From Opitutus sp. GAS368 (lineage in GTDB: Bacteria; Verrucomicrobiota; Verrucomicrobiia; Opitutales; UBA953): a DNA stretch of 33,594 nucleotides. Below the pieces are notes generated by a model. It was not told the DNA's origin. It searched no databases and was given only the letters and a program-made list of their open reading frames with translations. Each line of letters opens with the position of its first letter. Position 1 is the first letter of the stretch. Of the stretch, positions 8,375 through 23,381 are shown piece after piece. The stretch covers positions 1-33,594 of the forward strand of contig CALQIY020000009.1 of the NCBI GenBank assembly GCA_943330755.2, read 5' to 3'. Both the position numbers and the translations under genes were made by a program.

Positions 8375-9409
8375 TTACTTCTTGGCGAAGCGGTAATGAC
8401 AGACCATCCACTCCGCGCCGCCCCGGTAGTTCCAGAGCTCGGCGCAGGCCATGAAGAAGATGCGCCAGTAAGCGAGCCACTTGCGGGCCTGCTCCGGGCC
8501 ATAGGTCTCGGCGAAGATGCGCAGGACTTCCGCGCGATGGGCATCGGTGTTCTGGAGCCAGTGCTCGGCCGTCTGGCCGTAGTGGCGGCCTTCGACTTCC
8601 CAATGCGTTTCGAGCTTCAGGTCATCCTGGAAGCGCATCGCCAGGTCGTTGGAGGGCATGATCCCGCCGGTGAAGAAGTGTCGGGACATCCAGTCCGAGC
8701 CGTCCTTGGTCTCGAAATGGTAGGCGATGTCGCGGTGCGTGAAGACGTGGAAGAAGAGCTTCCCGCCCGGCTTGAGCCAGCCGCCGATGCGGCGCATGAG
8801 CTCGGCCCAGTTCTTCATATGTTCGAACATCTCGACCGAGACGACCCGGTCGAACCGGCCGGCCTCGGCGGCGAAGAGGTTCATGTCCTGCGTGATGATC
8901 CGGACGTTGCGGAAACCGCGCTTCGCGCATTCGCCCTCGATATGGGCCCGTTGGGAGGCGGAATTGGAGACTCCGGTGATCCGGGCGTTCGGGTAGTGCT
9001 CCGCCATCCAGAGGGTGAGCGATCCCCAACCACAGCCGAGCTCGAGGATTTCCATCCCGTCGGCCAATTCGGCGCGCTTGCAGGTCAGCGCCAACATCGT
9101 CTCCTCGGCTTGGCCGATGGTTTCCGTGCCCAGGGTGTAAAAGCACGACGAGTATTTCAGGCGGGGACCCAGGCAGAGCTTATAGAAGGCCGCCGGTACC
9201 TCGTAGTGCTGGTCGTTGGCGGCTTTCGTTTCGACGGCGACCGGCATCGAGCGGAGTTGCGCGGCAAAGCGATCGACCTGTGCGATGCGCGCGACGTTGT
9301 CGTCGGGGCGTTCGTCGCGCAGGCGTTGTTTGAGGAGCCGGCGGATACCCCAGCGGATGGCGCCGTCGGGGAGGAGGTCTTTGGCGAGGATGGTGTCGAT
9401 GAGCGGCAC
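8375..9409 (-). CDS. CFA-synthase-like SAM-dependent methyltransferase (short form)
   Basis: 344 residues, apparently from GTG at 9409; there is no in-frame ATG nearby. It lacks the N-terminal domain of cyclopropane-fatty-acid synthases but keeps the catalytic half: [23 protein letters not shown], the SAM motif [32 protein letters not shown], then a long aromatic C-terminus. This is the branch that also includes plant N-methyltransferase-like proteins, as I remember it. Likely substrates are an unsaturated acyl chain or an amine head group. It is the last gene of a minus-strand block, 52 bases after the DUF1295 gene, so co-transcription is likely. It is clearly different from the full-length CFA-type enzyme at 11159. 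Confidence 0.85.
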
Positions 9410-9461
9410 GCCACCATCAGTGGCGTTTCCGTCGTCGGTGGCAACCCGGAGCGCCAGAAAA

Positions 9462-10280
9462 TTACCGCAGGGGCTTCCGCGGCCAGAAGGCCGGCACCCG
9501 ACTTTGGTACTCGGCGTAGGCGGGGCCCTTGGACGCCAAGAGCTGGGCTTCCGTCAGGGGGATGCCCGTCACGCGGGTCAGCAGGTAGTACATGACGCCG
9601 GCGCAGGCGATACCCGGAATCCCCCAGTAGCTCTGATTGAAGGCCAACAGGGCGAAGCCGACCCAGACGAGCCATTCGCAGAAGTAATTCGGGTGGCGGG
9701 TCCAGGCCCAGAGGCCATGGGCGCAGACCTTTCCGCGGTTTTCAGGGTTGCGCTTGAAGGCGGCCAGTTGGGCGTCGGCGAGCCCTTCGCCCAGCATGCC
9801 CAAGGCGAAGATGAGGAGACCGAGCCAATGCCAGACGGCCATGTGGCCGGCTTCCTTGGGGGTGGTCCCCGCCGCGGAAATCAGGGGCAAAAGCAGCAAC
9901 GCCAGCGCCACGGCTTGGTACAGGTAGAACCGGTACATCTTCAGCCCCGTCCACTGGCCCCATTCCGCCCGCATCTTCAGGTAGCGGCCGTCTTCGCGGT
10001 CGAGGTGCCCGAGGACGCGGATGCCTAGGTGCGAGCCCAGCCGTAAGCTCCACACGGTCGTGGCCGCCGCGAGCCAGAGGAAGGGGTCGCGCGCGTTCCA
10101 AGGGAAGGAAGTGAGGATCCAGAGACCGACGAGCGCGAAGCCATAGGCCCAGGCCACATCGACGATCGACCAGTTATCGAGCAACTTCGCCACGACCCAA
10201 GTCGCCGTGAAGAAGAATCCGGCGAGGAACAGGATGTAGACGAAATCAAAGAGGAGCTGGCCGAGGAGGCTGGGGTTCAT
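9462..10280 (-). CDS. DUF1295 family integral membrane protein (steroid 5-alpha-reductase-like)
   Basis: 272 residues from ATG at 10280 ([13 protein letters not shown]); the track start lies inside the upstream gene. About six or seven hydrophobic segments are visible. The C-terminal signature [29 protein letters not shown], quoted here in part as [10 protein letters not shown], is typical of DUF1295 and of isoprenylcysteine methyltransferase/steroid reductase-like membrane enzymes that bind SAM or NADPH. DUF1295 genes often sit with CFA synthase and DUF1365 genes, so a reductase or methyl-transfer step on lipids is a fair inference. Its ATG overlaps the stop of the DUF2062 gene as ATGA, which implies translational coupling. 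Confidence 0.87.
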
Positions 10281-10762
10281 GGAGCAGGGGGAGGGGCAGG
10301 TGGGCCGAGCCGGCGAAAGAGCCGGACGAGGAGGAAGTATAGCCCCAAGCAAGTGACTGGCACGACTAATACCCATCCCAAGAGGCCGTGGACATAGGCG
10401 AGGCCGAATTTCGCGACAAACCCCCAGAAGGACCGCTGGAACTCCTCGATCAGGAGGCTGGGGCTAAGCGGCAGGGCCTCGGCGCCGGTGATGTATTCCC
10501 CGAGGCGGACGAAGGGAACGAGGAAGGCGAACTGCAGGGGGTAAGCGAGGTGATTGACCGTCTGCATCACGAGATGGTTGAGGCGGAAAATCCTGCCCGC
10601 GACGAGGCAGAGCACGGTGGTCGAGCCGATGACCGGGTTGACCGCGAGGCAAAGACTCACGACGACGGCCAGCGCAAGGTCTTCGGGCGAGAGCCCCCGC
10701 TTGACCAGCGCGATGAGCGGGTCGCTGACCTTCCGCTTCAGCCAATCGCGCAGGCGGCCCAT
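10277..10762 (-). CDS. DUF2062 family membrane protein
   Basis: 161 residues from ATG at 10762 (MGRLRDWLKRKVSDPL). The basic N-terminus is followed by LSPEDLALAVVVSLCLAVNPVIGSTT, quoted here as NPVIGSTT, the typical DUF2062 entry helix, then two or three more hydrophobic helices (AYPLQFAFLVPFVRLGEY; GLLGWVLVVPVTCLGLYFLLV) and a Pro-rich tail. The function of DUF2062 is not established; such proteins sometimes sit with glycosyl- or acyl-transfer genes. The ATG overlaps the upstream stop by one base (TGATG on the minus strand) and its own stop overlaps the DUF1295 start (ATGA). Confidence 0.85.
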   Translation of the reverse strand: MGRLRDWLKRKVSDPLIALVKRGLSPEDLALAVVVSLCLAVNPVIGSTTVLCLVAGRIFRLNHLVMQTVNHLAYPLQFAFLVPFVRLGEYITGAEALPLSPSLLIEEFQRSFWGFVAKFGLAYVHGLLGWVLVVPVTCLGLYFLLVRLFRRLGPPAPPPAP

Positions 10763-11157
10763 CAGGCCTGCTTGCGGGTGAAGAAGGTGACGTCGAGGCT
10801 GGCGTCCGCCGGGGCTTTCCAGAGGCAAAGCAACGCGTAGCCGGCGATGGCGAAATTGCCGAGCAGCATCAGCGCGATGAGCCATAGCCCGCGGGCCAGG
10901 CCGGAGCGTTCGCGCCAGGCGACGTAGAGCCAAAAGGCCAAGAAGCCGAAGTAGGCGTCGAACATCGTGGCGAGGCCCCACGGCTCGCTGCAGACGGTGA
11001 CGAATCCGTCCAGCACGTTGATGCCTTCCTTGCCCGCGACGGCGGCGTACTTCGCCAGGGAGGTGATGGTCGGGGCGGTGCTGGCATACCACGACACCCA
11101 GGTCATGGCGGCGAGGACGAGGACGAAGTAGGCGATGAGCGCGTTACGGGTTTTCAT
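10762..11157 (-). CDS. Small membrane protein, DUF1475-like
   Basis: 131 residues from ATG at 11157 (MKTRNALIAYFVLVLAAMTW). Three hydrophobic segments are visible: residues about 6-25, a middle segment after the motif EPWGLATMFDAYFGFLAFWLYVAW, and one near the C-terminus (LIALMLLGNFAIAGYALLCLW). The E/D-PW-G-A-T-x-x-D-x-Y-x-x-F pattern resembles DUF1475, a family of unknown function also found in plants. It starts one base after the stop of the CFA-type gene, so it belongs to the same transcript. Its role is unknown; a membrane partner of the lipid enzymes is conceivable. Confidence 0.75.
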   Translation of the reverse strand: MKTRNALIAYFVLVLAAMTWVSWYASTAPTITSLAKYAAVAGKEGINVLDGFVTVCSEPWGLATMFDAYFGFLAFWLYVAWRERSGLARGLWLIALMLLGNFAIAGYALLCLWKAPADASLDVTFFTRKQA

Positions 11158-11158
11158 G

Positions 11159-12412
11159 TCAAAGGGAAGGGTGGTTGGGGCGGACGTAGACGGCTTGGAC
11201 GACCCCGATGTTGCGGTGCGCAAAGGCGGCCTCGCAGTACCGGAAATACAGGCGCCACTTGCGGATGAAACGCTCGTCGAAGCCCATGGCGCGGACTTGG
11301 TCGATCTTCGCCTCGAAGGCTTGGCACCAGACATCGAGCGTGCGCGCGTAATCCAGGCCGAATTCCTCGAGGCGATGGAGCTGGAAGCCGCTCTCCTTCG
11401 TCATGAGCTGGTTCACGCGGTTGATCGAGAGCAGCAAGGAGCCCGGGAAGATGTGCTTCTGGATGAAGTCGACGCCGCGCCGGAATTCCTCGTACCGGCT
11501 GTCCGGGCAGGTGATGTACTGGAAGGCGGCGATGCCCGTGGGCTTCAGGAGCCGCCCGATGGAGTCGCAGAACGCGGGCAGATACTTGTGGCCGAGGGCT
11601 TCCATCATTTCGATGGAGACGCACTTGTCGTACTGGCCTTGGTGGTCGCGGAAGTCCTCGAGCTTCACGGTGATGCGGTCGGATAAGCCGGCCGCCCGGA
11701 TGCGCTCGATGGCCAGGTCGTGTTGGGCTTGCGAGATGGTCAAGGAGGTGACGCGGCAGCCGTGGTGCTTGACGGCGTGGAGGGCCCAGCCGCCCCAACC
11801 GGTGCCGATCTCGATGACGTGGTCGGTGGGCTTGAGCTGCAGGAACCGGCAGAGGGCCTCGTTCTTGTTGGCCTGGGCTTGCTCGAGCGTGGCGGCGCCT
11901 TCCCAGCGGGCCGACGAGTACATCATCGATGGATCCAGGAACAGCCGGAAGAAGTCGTTGGAGACGTCGTAGTGCTCGGAGATGTTGCGGCGGACGACCT
12001 GTTTGGAATTCGGGCGCAGCAGGTGGCCGATGCGGTCGGCGATCCGCAGGAGGCCGAGGGCGGCCCCGCGTGCGGCGGAACCCGACATGCCGGGCGTGTG
12101 GTCGACGTTCTGGATGAAGAAACCGATGACGGCCCGGAGGTCGGGCGAATCCCATTCGCCGTCCATGTAGGATTCGGTGAGGCCGATGTCCGCCGCCAAG
12201 ACGATGCGGCGGAAGAAGTTTTCGTCCGCGATGCGGATCTCCGCCGGTTGGCCGGCGAAGGCCGCATCGCCGATGAGGAGCGTCTCCCCCGTCGGCAAGG
12301 TCAGGCGGAGCTGCGCTTGCCGCATGCGGCGGAGCTCACGCAACACCAGCCGGCGGGCCAGGCCTCCGCGGGAGCTGGCCTCGGCGAGGCTGATGGGGGC
12401 GGGGGCGGTCAT
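11159..12412 (-). CDS. Cyclopropane-fatty-acyl-phospholipid synthase family methyltransferase (UfaM-like candidate)
   Basis: 417 residues. The N-terminal CFA-synthase domain is present (IGLTESYMDGEWDSPDL near residue 80), then EHYDVSNDFFRLFLDPSMMYSSA in part, the SAM motif VIEIGTGWGGWALHA, SIEMMEALGHKY and DFIQKHIFPGS. The E. coli-type LLHTIG segment, which carries a bicarbonate-binding histidine, is replaced by FQYITCPD. That replacement is seen in the branch that travels with DUF1365 and flavin-oxidoreductase genes. The enzyme should transfer a methylene or methyl group from SAM to a double bond in membrane phospholipid. Its ATG overlaps the DUF1365 stop (ATGA). In Rhodobacter sphaeroides a relative, UfaM, makes the methylated precursor of furan fatty acids; equivalence here is inference. 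Confidence 0.92.
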   Translation of the reverse strand: MTAPAPISLAEASSRGGLARRLVLRELRRMRQAQLRLTLPTGETLLIGDAAFAGQPAEIRIADENFFRRIVLAADIGLTESYMDGEWDSPDLRAVIGFFIQNVDHTPGMSGSAARGAALGLLRIADRIGHLLRPNSKQVVRRNISEHYDVSNDFFRLFLDPSMMYSSARWEGAATLEQAQANKNEALCRFLQLKPTDHVIEIGTGWGGWALHAVKHHGCRVTSLTISQAQHDLAIERIRAAGLSDRITVKLEDFRDHQGQYDKCVSIEMMEALGHKYLPAFCDSIGRLLKPTGIAAFQYITCPDSRYEEFRRGVDFIQKHIFPGSLLLSINRVNQLMTKESGFQLHRLEEFGLDYARTLDVWCQAFEAKIDQVRAMGFDERFIRKWRLYFRYCEAAFAHRNIGVVQAVYVRPNHPSL

Positions 12413-13260
12413 TCTTTGCGAAGGAGTTCGGGGGTGGGGTGGCGCAGGTTGCGCTGGAGAGCGATGTCATCCCCCTTGCGGCGGAAGGGAAGTTTTTTCA
12501 CGAGCCAAAGCCACGCGGCATGCAGGTGAATCAAGCCCACGACTTTGAGGATCAGGAACGGGACCTTCACCGTCAGCCAGGCGAGCTGGGCATCGGTCGC
12601 CGGGACGGCCCGCCCCGTCCACGTGCTGATGAGCGTCTTGCGGCCATCTTCAAAATGGTCGACGCCCACGGCCAAGCGCCCATCGGGTGCGCGCAGCGTG
12701 AATTCGAATTCGGTATCGAGGCCGGAAAAGGGCGAGACGTAGAAGCGCTTGGGGGTCCGGAGGACGAGCGACTCCTCGCCGGTGGGACCGAGTTGGCGGC
12801 AGGCCGGCCCCAGGAACCAGGCTTTCCGTTCGCCGAAGGTATTATGGACCTCCGCGATGCCGCAGTGGAGTCGGCCCCCTTGGTGCACCAGGAAGAAGAT
12901 GACGGGGTTGTAGCTCTTGCCGAACGCGCGCGGCATCGCGATGAGGGTGATCCGCGCCTCCGGGGTGAGCGTCTCGCCGTGGGCCGCGCAGAAGGCGCGG
13001 ACCCGCTGCGCCAAGGTCGCGTCGGCCCCGCCGAAATCGTGGGGGGTGCCTTCCGCGCCGAAGACCGCCGCCGCCGGCAGGAAGTCCGCCGCGCGCAGTT
13101 GGTATGGCGCCCAACCCTTTTCGCCGAGGAGGAGCTGCCCTTGGCCGATCCGGCCAAAGTCGCTTAGTTCTACTGCAAAGCAAAAGACACCATGCGTGAA
13201 GCCATGCCGCTTCGGCCAAAGCCGGGCGTGCATGACCTGCGCATCGTAGAGTCGGACCAT
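12409..13260 (-). CDS. DUF1365 family protein (UfaO-like candidate)
   Basis: 283 residues from ATG at 13260 (MVRLYDAQVMHARLWPKRHGF). The N-terminal motif VMHARLWPKRHGFTHGVFCF fits the DUF1365 signature of H-x-R-x-x-P-x-x-H-x-F. Further family segments are FGKSYNPVIFFLVH, EVHNTFGERKAW and KRFYVSPF. Near the C-terminus is one hydrophobic stretch (VPFLILKVVGLIHLHAAWLW) that may anchor it to the membrane. In R. sphaeroides a DUF1365 protein (UfaO, from memory) is needed for the oxygen-dependent step of furan fatty acid formation. This gene begins the six-gene block and its stop overlaps the next start. The 86-base gap to the divergent GIDE-LemA gene should contain its promoter. Confidence 0.9.
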   Translation of the reverse strand: MVRLYDAQVMHARLWPKRHGFTHGVFCFAVELSDFGRIGQGQLLLGEKGWAPYQLRAADFLPAAAVFGAEGTPHDFGGADATLAQRVRAFCAAHGETLTPEARITLIAMPRAFGKSYNPVIFFLVHQGGRLHCGIAEVHNTFGERKAWFLGPACRQLGPTGEESLVLRTPKRFYVSPFSGLDTEFEFTLRAPDGRLAVGVDHFEDGRKTLISTWTGRAVPATDAQLAWLTVKVPFLILKVVGLIHLHAAWLWLVKKLPFRRKGDDIALQRNLRHPTPELLRKE

Positions 13261-13346
13261 CGCCGCCCAGAGTGGAAGGAAAGCCCGCGGGTGCAAGTGC
13301 CCGCCTACGCTTGCCAACCTCGGCCGAGGCGGGTCATGCTGGCCGG

Positions 13347-14627
13347 GTGTCCGCTGCAGAAGCCAGCCCCGTCGGTCTCTTTCCCCTCGCCTTGGGGTTT
13401 CTCCTGCTCTGGTTCGGCCTCAACGCCGGACGGAAGCGCCGGTTGCTCGACGATACCCCGCTCAGCAAGACCTTGGGGGTCTTCATCGGCGAGGTCGAAG
13501 TCACCGGCGTCTGCGTGACCTCGACCCCGTTCCAGTCTTATTTGTCGGGCCGCATGTGCGTGCTCTACGATTGGAGCGTCGAGGAAGAGTGGGAGCGTTG
13601 GGAGACGGAAACCTACAGGGATAAGGACGGCCGCACCCGCACCCGCCGGGTGCTCCGGAGTGGGTGGACGACCGTGGCGGGTACGGAGCATACGCAAGGG
13701 TTTTACCTGAAGGATGAATTCGGGTTTCTGTGGGTCCATCCCCGCGGGGCCGACCTCGAGACGCTCGACCTCTTCTCCGAGACGGTTTCCCGGCATGAAG
13801 ACCTTTACTTCGCCAAAGGGCCCAGCGACGAGATCGCCGACTCGACGGGCCGTCGCCGGTTCCGCGAGTCCGGCCTGCCGGTCGGCACGCAGCTGTTCGT
13901 TCGGGGCCGCGCGACGGAGCGGTCCGACATCGTGGCGCCCCAAATCATCCAGGACCCGAAGGCGGACATGTTCATCATCACGCCCCGCAAGGAGAGCGAG
14001 GTCAGCGCCGGCAAGGACACCACCTACTGGCTGTGCAACCTGATCGGCCTGCTCGCCGTCATCGGCGGTTGCAGCTTGTTGGGGGGGCAGCAATACCCGG
14101 CCGTCTTCGCGTTGGTGGCCGGCTACTTCGTCGCCTGGGCCGCCGGGTGGGTTTGGATGGTCTTCAATAGCTTGGTCGGCCTGCGTAACCGCGTGCGCCA
14201 AGCCCATTCGCTGATCGATGTGCAGCTGAAGCGCCGCGCGGACTTGATTCCGGCGCTCGTCGCCTGCCTGCAGGGCTTCCGGCAATACGAAGCGGAGCTG
14301 CAGACGACCATCGCGACCTTGCGGGCGCAGGGGGGGCGCGCGCCGCAGGTCGCGGCCGTCGCGTCGTCCTTGGTGGCGGTCGTCGAGCGCTACCCCGACC
14401 TGAAGGCCGACCAGTCCTTCCAGGGCCTGATGAAGCACCTCACGGAGACCGAGGACCGCATCGCCTTGGCCCGGGCCTATGCGAACGACATCACGACGTT
14501 CTACAATACGCGCCTTGAACGGATTCCGGACGCGTATGTGGCGCAGATCATATCGATGCAGCCCGGCGCGCTCTTCGTCGCCACGGGCTTCGAGCGGAAG
14601 GCCGTCGACGTGAAGTTCCCCGCTTAA
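13347..14627 (+). CDS. GIDE-LemA fusion membrane protein
   Basis: 426 residues from GTG at 13347, which places the first membrane helix (VGLFPLALGFLLLWFGLNAG) right at the N-terminus; a GTG at 13272 is the track's alternative. Residues about 35-240 resemble the GIDE domain known from mitochondrial E3 ligases (TPFQSYLSGRMCVLYDWSVE, GFYLKDEFGFLWVHPRGAD in part), without a RING finger. Two hydrophobic segments follow (about 250-290). Residues about 295-426 are a LemA domain: NSLVGLRNRVRQAHSLIDVQ and LKRRADLIPALV. Both families are membrane-linked and poorly understood. The gene lies opposite to and between the two lipid gene blocks. Its TAA overlaps the flavin gene stop by four bases. Confidence 0.87.
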   Translation: MSAAEASPVGLFPLALGFLLLWFGLNAGRKRRLLDDTPLSKTLGVFIGEVEVTGVCVTSTPFQSYLSGRMCVLYDWSVEEEWERWETETYRDKDGRTRTRRVLRSGWTTVAGTEHTQGFYLKDEFGFLWVHPRGADLETLDLFSETVSRHEDLYFAKGPSDEIADSTGRRRFRESGLPVGTQLFVRGRATERSDIVAPQIIQDPKADMFIITPRKESEVSAGKDTTYWLCNLIGLLAVIGGCSLLGGQQYPAVFALVAGYFVAWAAGWVWMVFNSLVGLRNRVRQAHSLIDVQLKRRADLIPALVACLQGFRQYEAELQTTIATLRAQGGRAPQVAAVASSLVAVVERYPDLKADQSFQGLMKHLTETEDRIALARAYANDITTFYNTRLERIPDAYVAQIISMQPGALFVATGFERKAVDVKFPA

Positions 14628-15901
14628 GCCGTCCAGGCGTCGCGACCGAGGAGGAAACTGCAGAGGCGGTGGGCCGACCACAGGCCATCTTCGTGGAAGC
14701 CGTACCGTTGCCAGGCCCCGGCGAAGTGGACGCAGGCGCCCGGGCGTTCGTTCAGGGCCTGCACTTTTCCTTGGGCCGCCATCGCCTCGAGCGAGAACAT
14801 GGGATGTTCGACCGGGATGGAGCGCAGGACCTTGTCCGCGGCGATCTTATCGGGATGGTTGATCGTCACGAAGTACGGCCGCGCCGGCTCGAGGCCTTGC
14901 AACGCGTTCATCCAATAGTGCGTGGAAGTCGCTTCGCCGCTCGCGGTGCGCCAGGTCTGGTAGTTCCACGCTGACCAGGCGAGCTTGGCCCGGGGCATCG
15001 GGCTGGGGTCCGAGTGGACCAAGGCCACGTTTTGGTTGTAGCCGAAGGCGGCGAGGACGGCGCGTTCGGTGGCGTCGGCATCGGCGAGCAGCGCGAGCGA
15101 TTGGTCCGCGTGGCTCGCCAAGATGACGCGGTCGAAGGCTTCCTCGCCGGCGTCCGTGGCGACGAGGGCTTTGCCTTCGCTGCGCCGCACGGACTTGACG
15201 GCCGCGCCGAGCCGCAGCTGGGCGGGGTGCCGCGCCAGCAGCGCCTGCACATACGTGCGGGAACCATTGACCGGCGTCAGCCATTGGTGCTGCGTGTCGA
15301 GCCCGAGGAAGCCGTGGTTATGGAAGAAGCGCAGCAGGGCGGCGGCGGGGAAGCCCAGCATCTTTTCCGGGGGCGTGGACCAGACCGCCGAACTCATCGG
15401 GATCAGGTACAGCTCGAGGAAGTCCGCGCCTAAGCCATGGCGGGCGCACCAGTCGCGCAACGACGTGGTTTCGGCCTCGGTCGATTGCCAGCCCGTCTTG
15501 GCGAGTTGGTTGAAGCGATTGATCTGCAGGAGGAGCCGCCAGAAGCGCAGGCTGAAGAGGTTGCGCTTCTGGGCGAACAGATGGCGGAACGACGAACCGC
15601 ACCATTCGATGCCCGTCGGGTCGTGGCGCACCGAGAAGGACATGGGCGCCTTTTTCCAGCCGACGTCCAGCTCGCGGAAGAGACGGCAGAGATGGGGATA
15701 GGTCACCTCGTTGAAGACCATGAAGCCGGTGTCCATCGGCTGCGTGCCGCCCGCCTGCGTCGCCGGCACGTCGATGGTGTGCGCATGGCCGCCGGGACGC
15801 GTGTCCCGGTCGAACACCGTCACGTCGTGGTGGGCTGCGAGGAAATGCAGGCAACCAAGCCCGCCGATGCCCGACCCGATGATGGCAATCCGTTCACGCA
15901 C
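14624..15901 (-). CDS. FAD-dependent oxidoreductase / amine-oxidase-like desaturase (UfaD-like candidate)
   Basis: 425 residues from GTG at 15901, preceded by AGGAAGG at 8 bases and overlapping the desaturase stop by 8 bases; the track start is 19 codons upstream. The N-terminus has the FAD-binding GSGIGGLG and VTVFDRDTRPGGHAHT. The C-terminus has FAGAWQRYGFHEDGLWSAH, the GFHEDG signature of the group annotated as NAD/FAD-binding cyclopropane fatty acid proteins. Substrate-contact regions are hydrophobic, which fits a lipid. In R. sphaeroides the related UfaD oxidises a methylated acyl chain to a conjugated diene on the way to a furan (from memory). It forms a two-gene unit with the overlapping desaturase. 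The rest of the expected set is 1.4 kb further, past the GIDE-LemA gene. Confidence 0.9.
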   Translation of the reverse strand: MRERIAIIGSGIGGLGCLHFLAAHHDVTVFDRDTRPGGHAHTIDVPATQAGGTQPMDTGFMVFNEVTYPHLCRLFRELDVGWKKAPMSFSVRHDPTGIEWCGSSFRHLFAQKRNLFSLRFWRLLLQINRFNQLAKTGWQSTEAETTSLRDWCARHGLGADFLELYLIPMSSAVWSTPPEKMLGFPAAALLRFFHNHGFLGLDTQHQWLTPVNGSRTYVQALLARHPAQLRLGAAVKSVRRSEGKALVATDAGEEAFDRVILASHADQSLALLADADATERAVLAAFGYNQNVALVHSDPSPMPRAKLAWSAWNYQTWRTASGEATSTHYWMNALQGLEPARPYFVTINHPDKIAADKVLRSIPVEHPMFSLEAMAAQGKVQALNERPGACVHFAGAWQRYGFHEDGLWSAHRLCSFLLGRDAWTA

Positions 15902-16871
15902 GCGGCAGGCCTTCCTGTCGGGTCCGCTCCGCTTCTTCGTAGATGGAGTCCGGGACACCCTTGAGGCCCCAGATCAGGCCCAGCCATGACATCACCTTGA
16001 GGCCGTAATAGGTCGGATCGAATTCCCACCAATAGAAGCCCTGCTTCGTCGTCGCTTGGTAGCGGTGGTGGTTGTTGTGCCAGCCTTCGCCCAAGGTGAT
16101 CAGCGTCAGGACGAGGGAGTTCCGCGACTCATCGCCCGTGGTCCGGAAGCGCTTGGTGCCCCAGACGTGCGCGAGTGAATTGATGCAAGCCGTCCCGTGG
16201 AAAAGCACGACCGTCGAGATGACGCCCCAGACCAGGAGCTGCGGACCGTTGGTGTCGTAACCGTAGGACCCGAGCCAAGCGCCGGCCCCATACAACCCAC
16301 CCGCCGCCAGCAGCGGGATGAGGATGTCGAAACGATTCAGGAACACCAACTCGGGGTACTTGGCCAGGTCGGGGATCTTGGAGTAGTCGGTCGGGAAGTT
16401 CCGCTTCGAGGTGATCCAGCCGATATGCGACCACCAGAAGCCATCGACGACCGGCGAGTGCTTATCTTCTTCTTCGTCCGAATGCTTGTGGTGGTGGCGG
16501 TGCGTGCAGGCCCACCAGAGCGCCCCGCGTTGCACCGCCAAGGCGGTCCAGACGGCCATGATGAACTGGAAGCCACGGGAAGTGGAATAGGTCTTGTGGG
16601 AGAAGTAACGATGTAGGAAGCCCGTGATCGCGAACATGCGGAAGAAGTAGAGACCGACCGCGGTCCAGACCGCGATGGGGCTGGCGCCGACCCAAATCAC
16701 GGCGAAGCACGCGACGTGCAGGATGATGAAAGGGATGGACCGAAGCCAATCGACCTTCTTGGGGGTGTTTTGGAGCGTCTCGACCCCCTCCGGGATGTAG
16801 TCCGCGTCGAACCAGCGGATCAGGGAGCGGAAAAACCCGCTGGGGGCTGGGCTGACGGGGTCGGCTGGCAT
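15894..16871 (-). CDS. Membrane delta-9-type fatty-acid desaturase
   Basis: 325 residues from ATG at 16871 (MPADPVSPAPSGFFRSL). The 84 extra residues in the track would cover the promoter region and the start of the sigma factor gene. The histidine boxes HRYFSH, HRHHHKH and HNNHHRYQ are complete, with the usual four membrane segments between. It should make cis-unsaturated acyl chains, the substrate class of the CFA-type methyltransferases in the neighbouring block. It overlaps the flavin oxidoreductase by 8 bases and diverges from the ECF sigma factor across 125 bases. It differs from the desaturase at 5423, which carries a long helical tail. Confidence 0.92.
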   Translation of the reverse strand: MPADPVSPAPSGFFRSLIRWFDADYIPEGVETLQNTPKKVDWLRSIPFIILHVACFAVIWVGASPIAVWTAVGLYFFRMFAITGFLHRYFSHKTYSTSRGFQFIMAVWTALAVQRGALWWACTHRHHHKHSDEEEDKHSPVVDGFWWSHIGWITSKRNFPTDYSKIPDLAKYPELVFLNRFDILIPLLAAGGLYGAGAWLGSYGYDTNGPQLLVWGVISTVVLFHGTACINSLAHVWGTKRFRTTGDESRNSLVLTLITLGEGWHNNHHRYQATTKQGFYWWEFDPTYYGLKVMSWLGLIWGLKGVPDSIYEEAERTRQEGLPRA

Positions 16872-16951
16872 CTGCGGGCGAGTAAGTGAGCCTTGGGGCC
16901 TTTCGCAACTGCTTTGACCATTTTGGCGGAAGGGCCATCTTGGGGTCGGGT

Positions 16952-16969
16952 GCGTAGACAAATCTACGC
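16952..16969. promoter_or_regulatory. Perfect inverted repeat between the desaturase and ECF sigma genes
   Basis: gcgtaga-caaa-tctacgc, a 7-bp perfect palindrome with a 4-base centre, 28 bases before the sigma factor ATG and 81 bases before the desaturase ATG. It could be an operator or part of a sigma-factor promoter. The half-site ctacgc also occurs in the promoter gap of the DUF1365 block (13305-13310), which may be chance. Confidence 0.4.
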
Positions 16970-16996
16970 GCCGCCATCGCTCCCTTTGAGTTCCCC

Positions 16997-17500
16997 ATGA
17001 ACGATGCCCATGCCGAGCAAGACTGGCGGGCCTGGTTTGCCGAACACGGCGCCCGGCTCCGGTTGATCGCGCGCCAATGGACCCGCTCGGAGGCCGATGC
17101 CGACGATGTCCTCCAGGAGGCATTTGTACGCTTTTGGAAACACCAACGTCACCTTCCCGGCAATCCCAACGCCCTGGTCGTGACCTCCATCCGCCGGGCG
17201 GCGTTGGACCTCCATCGCCGGACGGATCGCCGCGCCCTCCGTGAGCAGGTTGTCTCGGCCGATGCCGCGGCCCTGGCGGACTTCGCGCCCGAGGCCGATC
17301 CGCGGCTCCAGGCCTTGGCGCGTTCCCTCCCGGCGCTGCCGGCGGAACAACGCGAAGTCGTCGTGCTCAAAGTCTGGGGTGACCTCACTTTCGAGCAGAT
17401 CGGCGCCCAACTCGAAATCTCCCCCAACACCGCCGCCTCCCGGTGGCGCTATGCCATGGAGGCGCTCCGTCGCCTCGTGACCGCCCGCACTTATGAATAA
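16997..17500 (+). CDS. ECF-type RNA polymerase sigma factor
   Basis: 167 residues, typical for group IV sigma factors. Region 2 contains EADADDVLQEAFVRFWKH and region 4 contains LPAEQREVVVLKVWGDLTFE and QIGAQLEISPNTAASRWRYA, a normal helix-turn-helix. No extra sensor domain is present. It redirects RNA polymerase to a small promoter set, usually while released from an anti-sigma factor. The following gene overlaps it by 8 bases and encodes a short membrane protein that fits an anti-sigma role. Divergence from the desaturase-flavin genes suggests they may be targets, like the ChrR-controlled sigma factor beside CFA/DUF1365 genes in proteobacteria. That is inference. Confidence 0.92.
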   Translation: MNDAHAEQDWRAWFAEHGARLRLIARQWTRSEADADDVLQEAFVRFWKHQRHLPGNPNALVVTSIRRAALDLHRRTDRRALREQVVSADAAALADFAPEADPRLQALARSLPALPAEQREVVVLKVWGDLTFEQIGAQLEISPNTAASRWRYAMEALRRLVTARTYE

Positions 17501-17918
17501 CGAAGATCAAGACATCGAATCCGCCTTGCGCAGCTTGCGTCCCCGCCCGCCTGGTCCGGCGGTGGTGAGCGCCATTGGCCGCGCGCTGGATGCGCCGGTC
17601 GTCCCGGCCGCGCCCCGCGGGGTTATCGTGCGCTGGTCGGCGGGCCTCGCGGCCGCCGCGGCCTGCCTGCTGGGGTTCTTTTTCTTCGGCCGCCCGCCCG
17701 TGACGACCACCCCCGAGTATCAACTCGTGCGCGCCGAACAGCCCCCGGCTTCGGTCGATGTCTTCGCGCCCGTCCGACTGGAAGATGGCTCCTTTGCCCG
17801 CCCCGTCCGGGTCCGCTGGAGCAATGAGACGCAATGGGAGGACCGTCGCACCAACACCCGCCTCATCCATTACTCGCCCAGCGAGCAGTTCGGGCTGATC
17901 CCCATGGAAACTTATTGA
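17493..17918 (+). CDS. Single-pass membrane protein, probable anti-sigma factor
   Basis: 141 residues. A soluble N-terminus of about 45 residues (MNNEDQDIESALRSLRPRPP) is followed by one membrane segment (WSAGLAAAAACLLGFFFFG) and a periplasmic part of about 75 residues that ends in NTRLIHYSPSEQFGLIPMETY, quoted here as EQFGLIPMETY. There is no zinc-binding HxxxCxxC motif, so it is not a ZAS-type anti-sigma like ChrR. The position, an 8-base overlap with the sigma gene, and the topology are the reasons for the call; no sequence family is recognised. The stop is 43 bases before the PDZ gene. Confidence 0.7.
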   Translation: MNNEDQDIESALRSLRPRPPGPAVVSAIGRALDAPVVPAAPRGVIVRWSAGLAAAAACLLGFFFFGRPPVTTTPEYQLVRAEQPPASVDVFAPVRLEDGSFARPVRVRWSNETQWEDRRTNTRLIHYSPSEQFGLIPMETY

Positions 17919-17961
17919 ACAAATCCGCCGATCCTCTCCGCTTATTGCTTATATCACCGCC

Positions 17962-19062
17962 ATGAACTCCCTCCGCCAAATCCCGCTGCACATGCTGCTG
18001 CTCGCCGGCCTCGTCGGCCCGTTGGCCGCCCAAAGTCAGTCCGCTCCGGCGACCCCCTCGGCGCCGGCCGATGCCAAGAAAAACGCCTTGGTGCCCCAAG
18101 CCTACATCGGTTTGTATGTGAATTCCCTGACCGAAGAACTCCGCGGCAAGTCCGCGGTGACCATGCCCGACGGTGTCGGCGTCAATGTCATCATCGTCGA
18201 CCCCAAGGGGCCGGCGGCGGGGAAGGTTGAGGTCGGCGACATCCTCACGCGCCTCGACGATCAGGTGTTGGTGACGCCCGACCAGTTCCGCGCCTTGGTG
18301 CGCATGCGCAAACCCGGCGATAAGCTGAAGCTCGTCGCCGTCCGGGAGTCGGAGGTGAAGACCATCGAAATTGAACTGACGGAAAAAGCCGTCCTCGAGC
18401 GCAGCGCGCCGACGGCTCGCTCCGTGGGCCCGGCGCCGACCATCATCCCGCCCACCGCCAATGGTACCAACCCGATGCGCATCACGGTGAATGGCCAGCA
18501 GATCGACCTCGGCAGCATGCCGGCGGGTAATGGTACCGTCACGCAAGTCGGCCCCGGCCACGTCGTCATCATCGGGCCCAATCAAGGCCTGCCGCCCGAG
18601 GTGCTGAAGCAGCTCGAGGAAATGCGCGCGCGCGGCTTGCCCATTCCGCCGATCGGTCCGCAAGGCCTGGCCCTCGGTGCGCCGGTGCCTGACCAAGGGC
18701 CCACCGCCCAAGGGGGCACGGTGCAGCAGCGTTCGCAGACCTTCAGCTTCAGCCTGGGCGGTCCCGGTGCGAAGAGCTCCTCCAGTTCGGTGGCTTCCGA
18801 TGCCCAAGGCACCGTCTCGCTGGAAGCGAAGGACGGCAAGAAGCACGCCATCATCAAGGACGCCGATGGCAACGTGACCTTCGAGGGAGACGTGACCTCC
18901 GAAGAGCAACGCGGCAAGATGCCGGCGGCGGCCCGCGATCGGCTCAAGCTGGTCGAGGGGAATTCTTTTTCCATCCAAGGCTCCAAGCCCGCAAAGAAGG
19001 CCGACGGTGCCGCGGAACCCGAAGCGCCGAAGAAGAAGCGCGACCCGAAGGAAGGCGCCTAA
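17962..19062 (+). CDS. Secreted PDZ-domain protein
   Basis: 366 residues. A signal peptide (MNSLRQIPLHMLLLAGLVG, cleavage probably after AAQ or nearby) precedes a PDZ domain at about residues 45-135, with AYIGLYVNSL, GPAAGKVEVGDILTRLDDQ and PDQFRALVRMRKPGDKLKL in order. This is the HtrA/DegS type of PDZ but no serine protease domain is present. The remainder is low-complexity (PPTANGTNP, GPQGLALGAPVPDQGP) with a second ordered part around the TVSLEAKDGKKHAIIKDADG segment and a Lys-rich end. It probably acts in the periplasm as a binding or signalling partner, perhaps feeding the sigma/anti-sigma pair upstream. A strong terminator lies 20 bases after its stop. Confidence 0.85.
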   Translation: MNSLRQIPLHMLLLAGLVGPLAAQSQSAPATPSAPADAKKNALVPQAYIGLYVNSLTEELRGKSAVTMPDGVGVNVIIVDPKGPAAGKVEVGDILTRLDDQVLVTPDQFRALVRMRKPGDKLKLVAVRESEVKTIEIELTEKAVLERSAPTARSVGPAPTIIPPTANGTNPMRITVNGQQIDLGSMPAGNGTVTQVGPGHVVIIGPNQGLPPEVLKQLEEMRARGLPIPPIGPQGLALGAPVPDQGPTAQGGTVQQRSQTFSFSLGGPGAKSSSSSVASDAQGTVSLEAKDGKKHAIIKDADGNVTFEGDVTSEEQRGKMPAAARDRLKLVEGNSFSIQGSKPAKKADGAAEPEAPKKKRDPKEGA

Positions 19063-19082
19063 ACGCGAGGCGTCCGCAAACG

Positions 19083-19115
19083 AAGAGGCCTCCCGCGTGG
19101 GAGGCCTCTTTATTT
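19083..19115 (+). terminator. Intrinsic terminator
   Basis: aagaggcctccc-gcgt-gggaggcctctt, a perfect 12-bp stem with a 4-base loop, followed by tattt on the + strand. It ends the sigma/anti-sigma/PDZ transcript and, since the stem is symmetric with AA on its other side, probably also the convergent YHYH gene. Confidence 0.9.
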
Positions 19116-19123
19116 GCAGCGGG

Positions 19124-20290
19124 TTACTTTTTCGCCGCGGGCTCAACCGGGGCGGCTGGGGTCGCCCCAGGCGGCGGGCCGTCGAGGGGCGGTGGACCAT
19201 CAAAAGGCGGCGGGCCGCCGAAGCCACCCTTACCCTGACCGGGGCCGTCTGGTCCGAAGCCGCCCTTGCCTTGGCCTGGGCCGCCTTTGCCTTTGCCCTT
19301 ACCGCCCTTGCCTGGGCCGCCGGCTTGGCCGCCGAGGTTCGAGTGCGGGTCGAGGTTCTGCTTGCTGAAGGAGGGGTCCGCCGTGCCCTTGTGTTTACGC
19401 GGGATGAAGGGGTAGTCTTCGGTCAGTACGTAATAGTAGGTTCCCTTGGGGAATTCGGGAGTGACGCCGGTGCGACCGCCGAATTCATCGAGGTCGCCGG
19501 AGCCGGCCACATATTCGAAATCGAGGCCGAACGAGCCGTCCGGCTGCCCCGTCGGGGTGGTTTTGCCGTCCCCGCCGCGTTCCGTGGTCTTGAGGCGATA
19601 GCTGCTCTTCATGTTCTTGAGCGGGCTCTTCGGGTCTTCGGGGTTCGTGTAGGCGTAGATTGCGTACACGGGGTACCCGTCGGCGGCCCAGCCGACGTGG
19701 GTCATCTTCGTTTCGCCGCCGGAAAGGCGCTCCAGGAGGAGGGTGGGGAGGCCGTGGTAGTGGTAGGCGCCGTTGGGCTGCACGTGGCCATGGTTCTCGT
19801 CGAGGCCGAGGCCGGACTTGATTTTAGGGGTGGTCCCCATGGTTTTGTTGCTGGTCAACGCCTCGTAGTGCCAAGGGTTGCTGCGGTCGCCGTCGTTGTA
19901 GACCTCCGCGGTACCCGGGTCGAAGACCACGCCGTTGAGGGCCACGCCCCAAGCCGACATCATGCGGGCAGAGGCTCCGCCTTTGGAAGGTTGCGGGTTC
20001 GTCGGGACTTGGAGGCTATACTTCTGCTCGGAGATGGGGTTGGGGTTGCCGCGGTTCGGGAACTTGGAGACCTTGTGGTCGGGGATGCCGTTGGACTCGA
20101 TGATGCGCTTGTCGCCTTTGACGGTGATGGTGACCTTGTTCTGGGCGGGCGGTGCGTTGTCCGCCTTGATCAAGGCCGGCCCGGTCGCCCGGGTTTCGGT
20201 TGCCTTGGTTTCAGGGGCCTTCGTTTCGGCGCCGTAGCTGGCAGTGCTGCCGAGCAGCAAGCAGAGGGTGAGGTTGCGGAGGGGGAGCAT
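19124..20290 (-). CDS. Secreted YHYH-domain protein with Gly/Pro-rich tail
   Basis: 388 residues with a signal peptide (MLPLRNLTLCLLLGSTASYG). The YHYH domain, named for its motif, covers about residues 95-310: NGVVFDPGTAEVYN, ENHGHVQPNGAYHYHGLP and GWAADGYPVYAIYAYT are all as in the family. The function is unknown; the histidine pattern suggests metal binding. The last 65 residues are low-complexity, with two copies of GPGQGKGGFG and three GPPP blocks. The protein is probably exported and may be anchored by nothing visible. It shares the terminator at 19083 with the PDZ gene and diverges from the DUF420 gene. Confidence 0.88.
   Translation of the reverse strand: MLPLRNLTLCLLLGSTASYGAETKAPETKATETRATGPALIKADNAPPAQNKVTITVKGDKRIIESNGIPDHKVSKFPNRGNPNPISEQKYSLQVPTNPQPSKGGASARMMSAWGVALNGVVFDPGTAEVYNDGDRSNPWHYEALTSNKTMGTTPKIKSGLGLDENHGHVQPNGAYHYHGLPTLLLERLSGGETKMTHVGWAADGYPVYAIYAYTNPEDPKSPLKNMKSSYRLKTTERGGDGKTTPTGQPDGSFGLDFEYVAGSGDLDEFGGRTGVTPEFPKGTYYYVLTEDYPFIPRKHKGTADPSFSKQNLDPHSNLGGQAGGPGKGGKGKGKGGPGQGKGGFGPDGPGQGKGGFGGPPPFDGPPPLDGPPPGATPAAPVEPAAKK
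19169..19318 (-). repeat. Low-complexity Gly-Lys/Pro coding repeats in the YHYH gene
   Basis: Codons for residues about 325-374: GPGKGGKGKGKG, two copies of GPGQGKGGFG separated by PD, then GPPPFD-GPPPLD-GPPP. Such in-frame repeats vary easily in copy number by slippage. The encoded tail should be flexible and positively charged in its Gly-Lys part. Confidence 0.8.
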
Positions 20291-20401: not shown

Positions 20402-20881
20402 ATGGCATCCACCACCGAAATCCTCTCCCGCTCCGTCGCCGGGATGAACGCCCTCGCCACGGTCTTTCTCGTCATCGGCATCCTGCGCATCAAGGCGGGC
20501 GATCGCATCGGCCATGGCAAGGCCATGGGGGCGGCGGTGCTCACCTCAGCCCTTTTCCTGGCTCTCTACTTGGCCTCCAAGGTCCACCTCTGGGTCGCCG
20601 TCGGTCAGACCAACATCATCTACCGCGAAGGCGTCGGGATGACCTGGGACAAGGCCCTGTACTACCTGATCCTCTTCCCGCACATCGCCCTCGCGATCGC
20701 GGTGACGCCTTTCATCCTTTGGACGGTCAAGCTCGCCAAGGCCGGTCGCCTCGAGGAGCACAAGCGTTTCGCCCGCTGGGTCTTCCCCGTCTGGCTCTAT
20801 GTCTCGGTGACGGGTGTCTTGGTCTGGGCCTTCATGGAGTTCAGCGGCTCGTTGGCGGCGGTCGTTGCGAAGGCTCCCTGA
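20402..20881 (+). CDS. DUF420 family membrane protein
   Basis: 159 residues with four hydrophobic helices. The family's landmarks are visible: ALYLASKVHLWV in the second helix, LILFPHIALAIAV in the third, and EEHKRFARWVFPVWLYVSVTG leading into the fourth, with histidines at the conserved places. DUF420 proteins (YozB/CtaM-like) are linked to haem-copper oxidase maturation in other bacteria. There are no oxidase genes in this window, so the role here is only a family inference. Its stop is 55 bases before the DivIC-like gene on the same strand, so the two may be co-transcribed. Confidence 0.85.
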   Translation: MASTTEILSRSVAGMNALATVFLVIGILRIKAGDRIGHGKAMGAAVLTSALFLALYLASKVHLWVAVGQTNIIYREGVGMTWDKALYYLILFPHIALAIAVTPFILWTVKLAKAGRLEEHKRFARWVFPVWLYVSVTGVLVWAFMEFSGSLAAVVAKAP

Positions 20882-20936
20882 GCGAGATTTTCCCCTCGCC
20901 CGCCGCGGGCAGACGGGTTTGACTGCGCGTACGTTT

Positions 20937-21302
20937 ATGGAGAGCCCGGAGCGCACCGCCAACCCTCAGACCGAGAAGCTCATCCTTTGGACCTGCTTCC
21001 TGTTGTTCTGCACCGTGCTTGGTTTGGTCTACTCGACGTATCAAGAGGAGGAGGAGCGCCTCGCTTCCATGCGTCTGAACGAGAAGGCGAAGGAAGATAC
21101 TTTCAACGCCATCGAGCGTCAGCGCGAGCAGACGGCGCGTTACATCGACCGCTTCACCCGCGATCCGGAATTCGTCCGCGATCAGGCGCGCGAACGCCTC
21201 GGTGTGGCCGAGCCGGGTGAAGTGGTGATCCGTCTGGATGGGGGTGCGGCTTTGGCGCAACCCGCCCCGGCCCCGCAGCCGAAGCCCGCCGGCCAGCGCT
21301 AA
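20937..21302 (+). CDS. Septum formation initiator (FtsB/DivIC family) protein
   Basis: 121 residues from ATG at 20937 (MESPERTANPQTEKL). One N-terminal membrane helix (LILWTCFLLFCTVLGLVYS) is followed by a coiled coil (QEEEERLASMRLNEKAKEDT) and the family ending RDPEFVRDQARERLGVAEPG, with VVIRL. The Pro/Ala-rich last 20 residues are not part of the domain. FtsB/DivIC works with FtsL and FtsQ in the divisome at the inner membrane. The track start extends into the DUF420 gene and is rejected. argH begins 45 bases downstream on the same strand. Confidence 0.87.
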   Translation: MESPERTANPQTEKLILWTCFLLFCTVLGLVYSTYQEEEERLASMRLNEKAKEDTFNAIERQREQTARYIDRFTRDPEFVRDQARERLGVAEPGEVVIRLDGGAALAQPAPAPQPKPAGQR

Positions 21303-21347
21303 GCATCCTTGCTTGCCTGCAGGCCCCGGCAGGGGCATTCCTACTTC

Positions 21348-22754
21348 ATGTCCGCACGTAAGAAGGCACAAGCGACTTGGGGCGGCCGGTTCAGCGCCGG
21401 TCCCGCCGAATTGATGCTCCGTTTCGGCGAATCGGTCTCGTTCGATCGCCGCCTCTGGGCGCAAGATATCCGTGGTTCCAAGGCCCACGCCACCATGCTG
21501 TCCAAGGTCGGCATCCTGACGGCCCGCGAATGCGCGGCCATCGTGAAGGGCCTCGATGGCATCGCCCGGGAAATCGCCGCCGGCAAATTCGTCTGGAGCG
21601 AGGCGCTCGAGGACGTGCACATGAACATCGAAAGCGCGCTCACGCAGCGCGTGCCGGCCGCCGCCAAGCTGCACACGGCCCGTTCGCGCAACGATCAAGT
21701 CGCCACCGATGTCCGTCTCTGGATCAAGGACCAAGCCGCCGCCGTCGACGCCGCGCTCGTGGGCTTGCTCCGTGCGCTCGTCGAACTCGCCGCCGCCAAC
21801 GCCACGGTGATCCTGCCGGGTTACACGCACCTCCAGCGCGCCCAGCCGGTCTCCGCCGCCCATCACCTCTTGGCCTACGCCGAGATGTTCGGCCGCGACC
21901 GCACGCGTTTCGCCGCCGCCGCCGCTTCGGCCAATTGGTGCCCGTTGGGTTCCGGCGCCATCGCCGGGACGACCCTGCCGATCCGCCGCGAGATCACGGC
22001 GAAGCTCCTGGGCTTCGTCGACGCGAAGGGCCGTCCGCAGGTGACGACCAACTCCATGGATGCCGTCGCCGACCGCGATCCCGCCACGGAGTTCTGCTTC
22101 GCCGCCGCCCTCTGCGGCGTGCACCTCTCGCGCTTGGCCGAAGACATGATCCTTTGGTCGACGGCCGAATTCGGCTTCGCGCGCATGCCCGACGAGTTCT
22201 CGACGGGTTCGTCGCTGATGCCGCAGAAGCGCAACCCGGATTCGATGGAACTGCTCCGCGGCAAGGCCGCCCGCTTCCAGGCTTCGCTGACGCACCTGCT
22301 CACGTTGACCAAGGGCTTGCCGCTGACCTACAACCGTGACCTGCAGGACGACAAACCGCCGCTCTTCGATGCGGCCGACCAGATCCTGCTCTCGCTCGAC
22401 GTCGCCGCCGCCACCTTGCGCGGGACGACCTTCAACCGCGCGCGTTGCCTCGCCGCGGCTTCGGATCCGGCCCTCCTGGCGACCGACCTCGCCGATTGGC
22501 TCGTCCGCAAGGGCATGCCCTTCCGCCATGCGCACCATGCCGTGGGCCGGCTCGTCGCGCTCGCCGAAAAGACCGCCGTACCGCTCGACAAGCTTTCCGA
22601 TGCGGCCGCCCTCACGGCCGATGCCGCCTTCACGAAGGGCTGGCGCGAGGTCTTCAACCTGCAGCGGGGCTTCGCCGCCCGCGAGAATACGGGCATGCCC
22701 GGCCCCAAGGCCGTCGCCCGCGAGCTCGCGCGCTGGCGGAAGGCGCTCCGCTAA
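21348..22754 (+). CDS. argH: Argininosuccinate lyase
   Basis: 468 residues from ATG at 21348 ([19 protein letters not shown]), the usual length. The family features are complete: WGGRF at the start, HTARSRNDQ near residue 105, a central THLQRAQPV segment with the catalytic-acid histidine region, and the superfamily signature [15 protein letters not shown] with the catalytic serine. It splits argininosuccinate into arginine and fumarate in the cytoplasm, the last step of arginine synthesis. No other arg genes are in the window. A LysE-type exporter starts 6 bases after its stop, which suggests that arginine or another basic amino acid might be the exported compound. Confidence 0.97.
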
Positions 22755-22760
22755 GGGTCG

Positions 22761-23381
22761 ATGAACATCGGACTGCTGATCGGTTCCTGCCTGACCGCGA
22801 GCCTTTCCCCCGGCCCGGCGTCGTTGTCGACCATCGAGACGTCCTTGCGCTACGGTAAGCGTCGGACGTTCTGGCATACGCTAGGTCTTGCCATCGGTGA
22901 GACGCCTCACCTGTTCCTCGCGCTCTACGGGACGCATTGGTTGACGGTGCATGTCCCCTACGCGCTGCAGCTCATCGGCTTCGCAGGGATGTCGTACTTC
23001 CTGTACCTCGGCCTCGGGCTGCTCCTCCGTCCGCGCTCAAGTCTCCCGGAATCCGTCGGCCTGGAGGGTGGCGCGGTGCGCTTGTTCATCCGCGGGGCTT
23101 GGGTGAACTTCTCGAATCCGAAGACCATCCCGTGGATGATCGTCATCATCCAGGCGGCCGGCGTCCCGGCCGATCAACTGGCTTGGTCCACGACGGGCGT
23201 CTTCCTGCTGTGTACGTTGGGCTCCGAGATCTCGGTGATGAGTTTCTATGCGTTCGTCGGCGATCGTCTCCGGGTCCGCCTGAAGGATGCGGCCACCATC
23301 CGGGTGGTCGACCGCGTGACCGGGGTGCTGTGGTTGGCGCTGGGCCTGTTGATGGCTTGGAGGCTCTTTACTTCACTGTGA
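22761..23381 (+). CDS. LysE/RhtB-family amino-acid exporter
   Basis: 206 residues, six hydrophobic segments. The N-terminal SPGPASLSTIE and the later NFSNPKTIPWM are the conserved SPGP and NPK motifs of the LysE/RhtB superfamily. These inner-membrane carriers export amino acids such as lysine, arginine, threonine or homoserine lactone. It is very probably co-transcribed with argH (6-base gap). Its stop overlaps the convergent GH3 gene by 14 bases. The substrate is not determined by the sequence. Confidence 0.88.
   Translation: MNIGLLIGSCLTASLSPGPASLSTIETSLRYGKRRTFWHTLGLAIGETPHLFLALYGTHWLTVHVPYALQLIGFAGMSYFLYLGLGLLLRPRSSLPESVGLEGGAVRLFIRGAWVNFSNPKTIPWMIVIIQAAGVPADQLAWSTTGVFLLCTLGSEISVMSFYAFVGDRLRVRLKDAATIRVVDRVTGVLWLALGLLMAWRLFTSL

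Follow-up and report, generated by a model that had tools for sequence, protein, structure and literature searches.

A GIDE-LemA membrane protein of Verrucomicrobiota and its insertion into a lipid locus in a single clade

The mitochondrial outer-membrane protein MAPL (also called MULAN or MUL1) combines a BAM/GIDE domain, which sits in the intermembrane space, with a RING domain, and the original function of the GIDE/BAM part has been described as an open question (PMC4457424). According to a survey of BAM/GIDE proteins, in which LemA is unmentioned, the prokaryotic members are all without RING (PMC4457424). The LemA family includes TM0961 of T. maritima (PDB 2etd) and MamQ, which is needed for normal magnetosome membranes, is described as the sole LemA member tied to a known process and may, according to one proposal, serve as a hub of the cytoplasmic membrane (PMC4902198); in a review, the C-terminal LemA domain of MamQ is assigned to the non-cytoplasmic side (PMC3905215). 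A third system is the formation of furan fatty acid in Rhodobacter sphaeroides by UfaD, UfaO and the methylase UfaM, where the adjacent genes RSP1091-RSP1090 are ufaD, encoding an NAD/FAD protein, and ufaO, whose product contains DUF1365, in one operon (PMC7380195). No paper on a fusion of GIDE with LemA was found in the literature searched.

The window analysed here, the whole stretch of 33,594 nucleotides from Opitutus sp. GAS368, carries such a fusion at 13347..14627 on the plus strand, in an open reading frame of 426 aa with a GTG start and a TAA stop. Pfam places a GIDE match (PF12483) at residues 88-233, with 46.2 bits against a cutoff of 23.6 (E 4e-12), and a LemA match (PF04011) at residues 288-424 (14208..14618, plus strand), with 116.4 bits against a cutoff of 26.2 (E 1.3e-33). 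As a folded unit, the all-beta GIDE domain extends over residues 36-215 in the AlphaFold2 model (13452..13991, plus strand). The original prediction of a RING-less GIDE domain, expected within residues 35-240 and fused to LemA, proved right, since both matches exceed their cutoffs, the GIDE match falls inside the expected span and a Pfam search of the 426-aa protein for a RING domain gave no match, the C-terminus being LemA. The gene holds the sole GIDE match across the host genome and, with dN/dS values of 0.09-0.14 against five close relatives, similar to those of the lipid genes, it is under purifying selection. The closest public loci are those of Opitutae MAGs (Verrucomicrobiota), the one from Opitutia bacterium UBA957 (L109) being 92% identical. 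Two public MAGs that bear the names Akkermansia muciniphila and Polynucleobacter meluiroseus (L073 and L079) hold the Opitutae locus as well, and their names or bins are probably wrong.

The protein shares with MAPL, besides the PF12483 match, a GIDE/BAM domain that immediately follows a short transmembrane helix at the N-terminus and has a further membrane helix behind it. Hydropathy and the AlphaFold2 model put the first helix at about residues 9-28 (13371..13430, plus strand), with RKRR right behind it, and the second at about residues 226-248, so that the GIDE domain is flanked by membrane segments. Unlike in MAPL, LemA takes the place of the RING, and two transmembrane helices follow the GIDE domain, the third helix (about residues 251-274) being connected to the second by a short loop (14022..14168 for both, plus strand). 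The Pfam label of the family, 'E3 Ubiquitin ligase', is what speaks for a bacterial ubiquitin- or SUMO-ligase-like enzyme, a role that we rejected as extremely improbable: no RING was matched here, RING is absent from all prokaryotic BAM/GIDE proteins surveyed (PMC4457424), and in MAPL it is the RING that is held responsible for ligase activity.

The C-terminal part is a LemA helical domain like those of TM0961 and MamQ, and comparison with 2etd gave a sequence E of 5e-38 and a Foldseek probability of 1.00. The protein is not MamQ, as its match to the MamQ profile NF040966 (E 2e-18, 66.9 bits) lies far below the 250-bit equivalog cutoff; MamQ itself has a single TM helix and is encoded in another operon, and relative to the LemA family an N-terminal GIDE domain and two transmembrane helices have been added. 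The AlphaFold2 model, built with 50 homologues (mean pLDDT 88, pTM 0.79), consists of a helix at residues 8-35, an all-beta domain at 48-212, a helix at 216-244 and a long helix at 250-331 that leaves the membrane to become part of the LemA bundle, and the GIDE domain modelled alone reached a pLDDT of 93.6. The structure prediction thus agrees with the expectation of a folded GIDE domain joined to LemA by membrane helices. A fold search for a solved structural relative of the GIDE domain found none, the best results being weak OB-fold similarities to a single-strand-binding protein (E >0.01).

The predicted order along the protein is TM1-GIDE-TM2-TM3-LemA; as a single transmembrane helix precedes GIDE and a pair of them separates it from LemA, the two domains would lie on the same face of the membrane. 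Among 42 homologues, Lys and Arg together average 0.02 ahead of TM1 against 4.4 in the 15 residues behind it. The corresponding values are 1.1 for the loop joining TM2 to TM3 and 5.6 for the stretch behind TM3. By the positive-inside rule, this charge bias would place GIDE and LemA in the cytoplasm, and the two domains probably face that side with the N-terminus out. The parallel drawn earlier with the mitochondrial GIDE domain of the intermembrane space is therefore doubtful. The cytoplasmic prediction conflicts both with the location of the MAPL domain and with the placement of MamQ in the review, so the membrane face is a tentative assignment.

GIDE-LemA is the common GIDE architecture of Verrucomicrobiota. 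GIDE was present in 19 of 388 genomes sampled across the phylum, and LemA was also present in 8 of the 10 GIDE frames, from the phylum and order surveys, that were scanned with Pfam. Homologues of the fusion occur in Planctomycetota and Chloroflexota too, with the same architecture in unlinked homologues of all three phyla, and this recurrence makes it a standard architecture. A search for plasmid copies yielded LemA-domain matches only, among the matches listed. Two loci (L234, 58-3264; L235, 166-3348) encode proteins of about 1060 residues in which GIDE and LemA are accompanied by long N- and C-terminal parts lacking assignment, and L234 carries two GIDE stretches.

In the window, the gene lies between minus-strand genes of a lipid locus. 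Its divergent neighbour encodes a UfaO-type DUF1365 protein (12409..13260, minus strand; PF07103, E 6e-53), downstream of which lies a methyltransferase of the cyclopropane-fatty-acid-synthase (CFA) family (11159..12412, minus strand; PF02353, E 3e-77), and the same locus includes a DUF1295 (steroid-reductase-like) protein (9462..10376, minus strand; PF06966). The convergent neighbour is a UfaD-like FAD-dependent oxidoreductase identified by Pfam (14624..15958, minus strand), with a fatty acid desaturase upstream of it (15894..17123, minus strand; PF00487). The locus contains two distinct CMAS-type methyltransferases (8375-9409 and 11159-12412), and two conserved minus-strand frames at 17863-19227 (454 aa) and 20841-22877 (678 aa) belong to a genus-wide syntenic block and have no Pfam match. 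The neighbours of the fusion, namely a FAD oxidoreductase, a DUF1365 protein and a CFA-type methyltransferase, recall ufaM-ufaD-ufaO of R. sphaeroides, with the flavin-DUF1365 pair adjacent in relatives and split here. From its gene content, we infer that the locus is of the ufaD-ufaO type. Unlike here, no GIDE-LemA gene has been reported between the Rhodobacter ufa genes, and none is present in the annotated proteobacterial FAD-DUF1365-CFA operons of the Azospirillum and Azoarcus records; in Azospirillum, genes for a cupin protein and a sigma factor lie alongside.

Among 80 public relatives, 34 are linked to lipid genes and 46 lie away from them. All 34 lipid-linked homologues, identically placed, form one clade (support 100/100), and the fetched flanks (up to 10 kb) of the homologues outside it contain a lipid gene in 0 of 45 loci, the recurrent neighbours being housekeeping genes (pantothenate kinase, BirA-type ligase, leucyl-tRNA synthetase, DHFR). 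On these counts we rejected a general association of GIDE-LemA with lipid genes; the link is real but local to one clade and genus. There, every locus for which enough sequence is available has GIDE-LemA in the slot, reversed. Its position between two halves of the locus, which the original prediction took as part of the layout of the region, thus stands within the genus together with the reverse orientation, and does not extend across taxa, where the gene is found mostly away from lipid genes.

The empty site is preserved in relatives (L208-L213, L215, L216), where the flavin gene directly neighbours the DUF1365 gene on the same strand and 14-189 bp separate the matched ends. Seven of these loci come from other families of the order and one from genus g24 of the same family (41 bp), and this arrangement indicates that a single backward insertion split the ufaD-ufaO-like pair. 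The slot has accepted an unrelated gene too, since in another genus of the family (L207, 8163-8982) it holds a same-strand TrmO/TsaA-like gene, identified by eye. Tandem GIDE-LemA copies were seen inside the lipid locus in L217, L218 and L219 (at about 9000-11700). In the tree, the two non-lipid members of the clade (L124, L222) nest among tandem second copies, and one insertion, later tandem duplication in some genomes and relocation of second copies explain all that was seen.

Such a fixed position, held under purifying selection, might reflect recruitment, in which the GIDE-LemA protein of this genus became a membrane scaffold or sensor that helps the modified-fatty-acid enzymes to act on phospholipids of the membrane, and is expressed along with the DUF1365-CFA unit. 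We regard this as possible, but on balance rather unlikely. The gene is present whenever the locus is intact (no intact lipid locus without it was found in the genus), and the tandem duplicate also remains in the slot in four genomes (G002, G151, G163, G209); yet the surrounding genes are equally syntenic, second copies have been relocated away from the locus in L124 and L222, many genomes, such as L208-L216, have the lipid locus without the gene in it, and homologues outside the clade are free of lipid neighbours. Genus genomes without GIDE-LemA either lack the locus as well (G003, G005, G011) or have a contig end there (G008, G025), and because joint absence is expected from linkage, it is not independent evidence of function. 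Outside the genus, GIDE and DUF1365 co-occur in 13 of 17 GIDE-positive genomes, a figure that is confounded by family and was for that reason not used as evidence.

Recruitment would also be in keeping with the divergent promoter region, which both genes have in common and which shows the same geometry on each side. For the DUF1365 gene, the most probable start is a conserved ATG at 13260 (minus strand) and not the beginning of its open reading frame at 13317, so the intergenic region measures 86 bp (13261-13346). The motif GCAAG-N(11-27)-CTTGC occurs between the two start codons in 32 of 32 loci, against a mean of 0.2 of 32 for shuffled sequence. On each strand, the start codon follows the first C of CTTGC by 35-39 nt in all 32 loci; on the GIDE-LemA side, where a CATAA-like hexamer lies between CTTGC and the start codon, the range is 35-37 nt, and this constant spacing from an invariant CTTGC in the lipid-linked loci backs the GTG at 13347 as the start. 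The putative GIDE-LemA promoter (13310..13340, plus strand) comprises CTTGC at 13310-13314 and CATGCT at 13335-13340, and the putative promoter of the DUF1365 transcription unit (13261..13297, minus strand) has CTTGC at 13297-13293 ahead of the ATG. The geometry would fit back-to-back promoters with leaderless transcripts and suggests a GIDE-LemA mRNA starting at the GTG itself. The earlier claim of a promoter facing DUF1365 holds up. The pyruvate kinase gene of the window has the same element 36 nt ahead of its GTG (3855, minus strand), so the promoter looks like an ordinary type of this genome and not a lipid-specific one; GCAAG...CTTGC in this form has one occurrence in the genome. A palindromic operator was considered and set aside, because each arm stands at a steady distance from the start codon on its side although the spacing between the arms varies from 11 to 27 nt, and because the same element stands at pyruvate kinase.

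At its other end, the gene shares the TTAA at 14624..14627 with the flavin gene, whose stop codon lies on the minus strand. The overlap of stops noted in the original prediction was confirmed, and overlap or abutment holds in 37 of 37 loci (about 33 distinct genomes), the gap being -4, 0 or +2. The interference with the flavin gene that the original prediction raised would be compatible with these conserved stops. Since the stops overlap and a search of the junction gave no intrinsic terminator, transcripts would be predicted to run into each other, and the GIDE-LemA and flavin transcripts might collide, each unit repressing the other in an excludon-like manner. Such antisense control, to which the constancy of the gap lends some weight, appears unlikely to us: compact genomes often have convergent genes whose stops abut, Rho-type termination may operate, and a single precise insertion, inherited ever since, is enough to account for the arrangement. 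Still further from what we would expect is a switch between enzyme sets, by which a sensor or scaffold of membrane state would have taken control of a furan-type fatty-acid pathway through antisense insertion between ufaD and ufaO, sharing a promoter region with one half and opposing the other by obligatory transcript overlap.

We slightly favour a general membrane scaffold whose location in the lipid locus is conserved but circumstantial and goes back to one historical insertion. The protein would be an inner-membrane protein with three transmembrane helices and the N-terminus out, carrying the GIDE beta domain and the LemA helical domain on one, probably cytoplasmic, face. By analogy with one distant relative, MamQ, its most likely function is that of a membrane-bound scaffold or hub, and its role would concern the envelope in general, independent of the lipid enzymes and presumably with no dedicated part in their pathway. 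In the ancestor of the genus, the gene would have entered, once and reversed, an older fatty-acid modification operon of ufaD-ufaO-CFA type between its flavin gene and its DUF1365 gene, leaving a desaturase-flavin unit on one side and a DUF1365-CFA-DUF1295 unit on the other. Purifying selection and vertical inheritance would have kept the gene there, expressed from its own putative leaderless-type promoter. Against a circumstantial location speaks that every intact locus shows the divergent promoters and the abutting stops, a constancy that hints at more than chance.

The genus provides a clear natural example of an operon that a precise antisense insertion has divided in two. In GIDE-LemA, two known but poorly understood domains are joined in one real membrane protein, and the common, compact bacterial fusion suggests that both domains act together at a membrane face and lets the domain pair be studied without ubiquitin or mitochondria.
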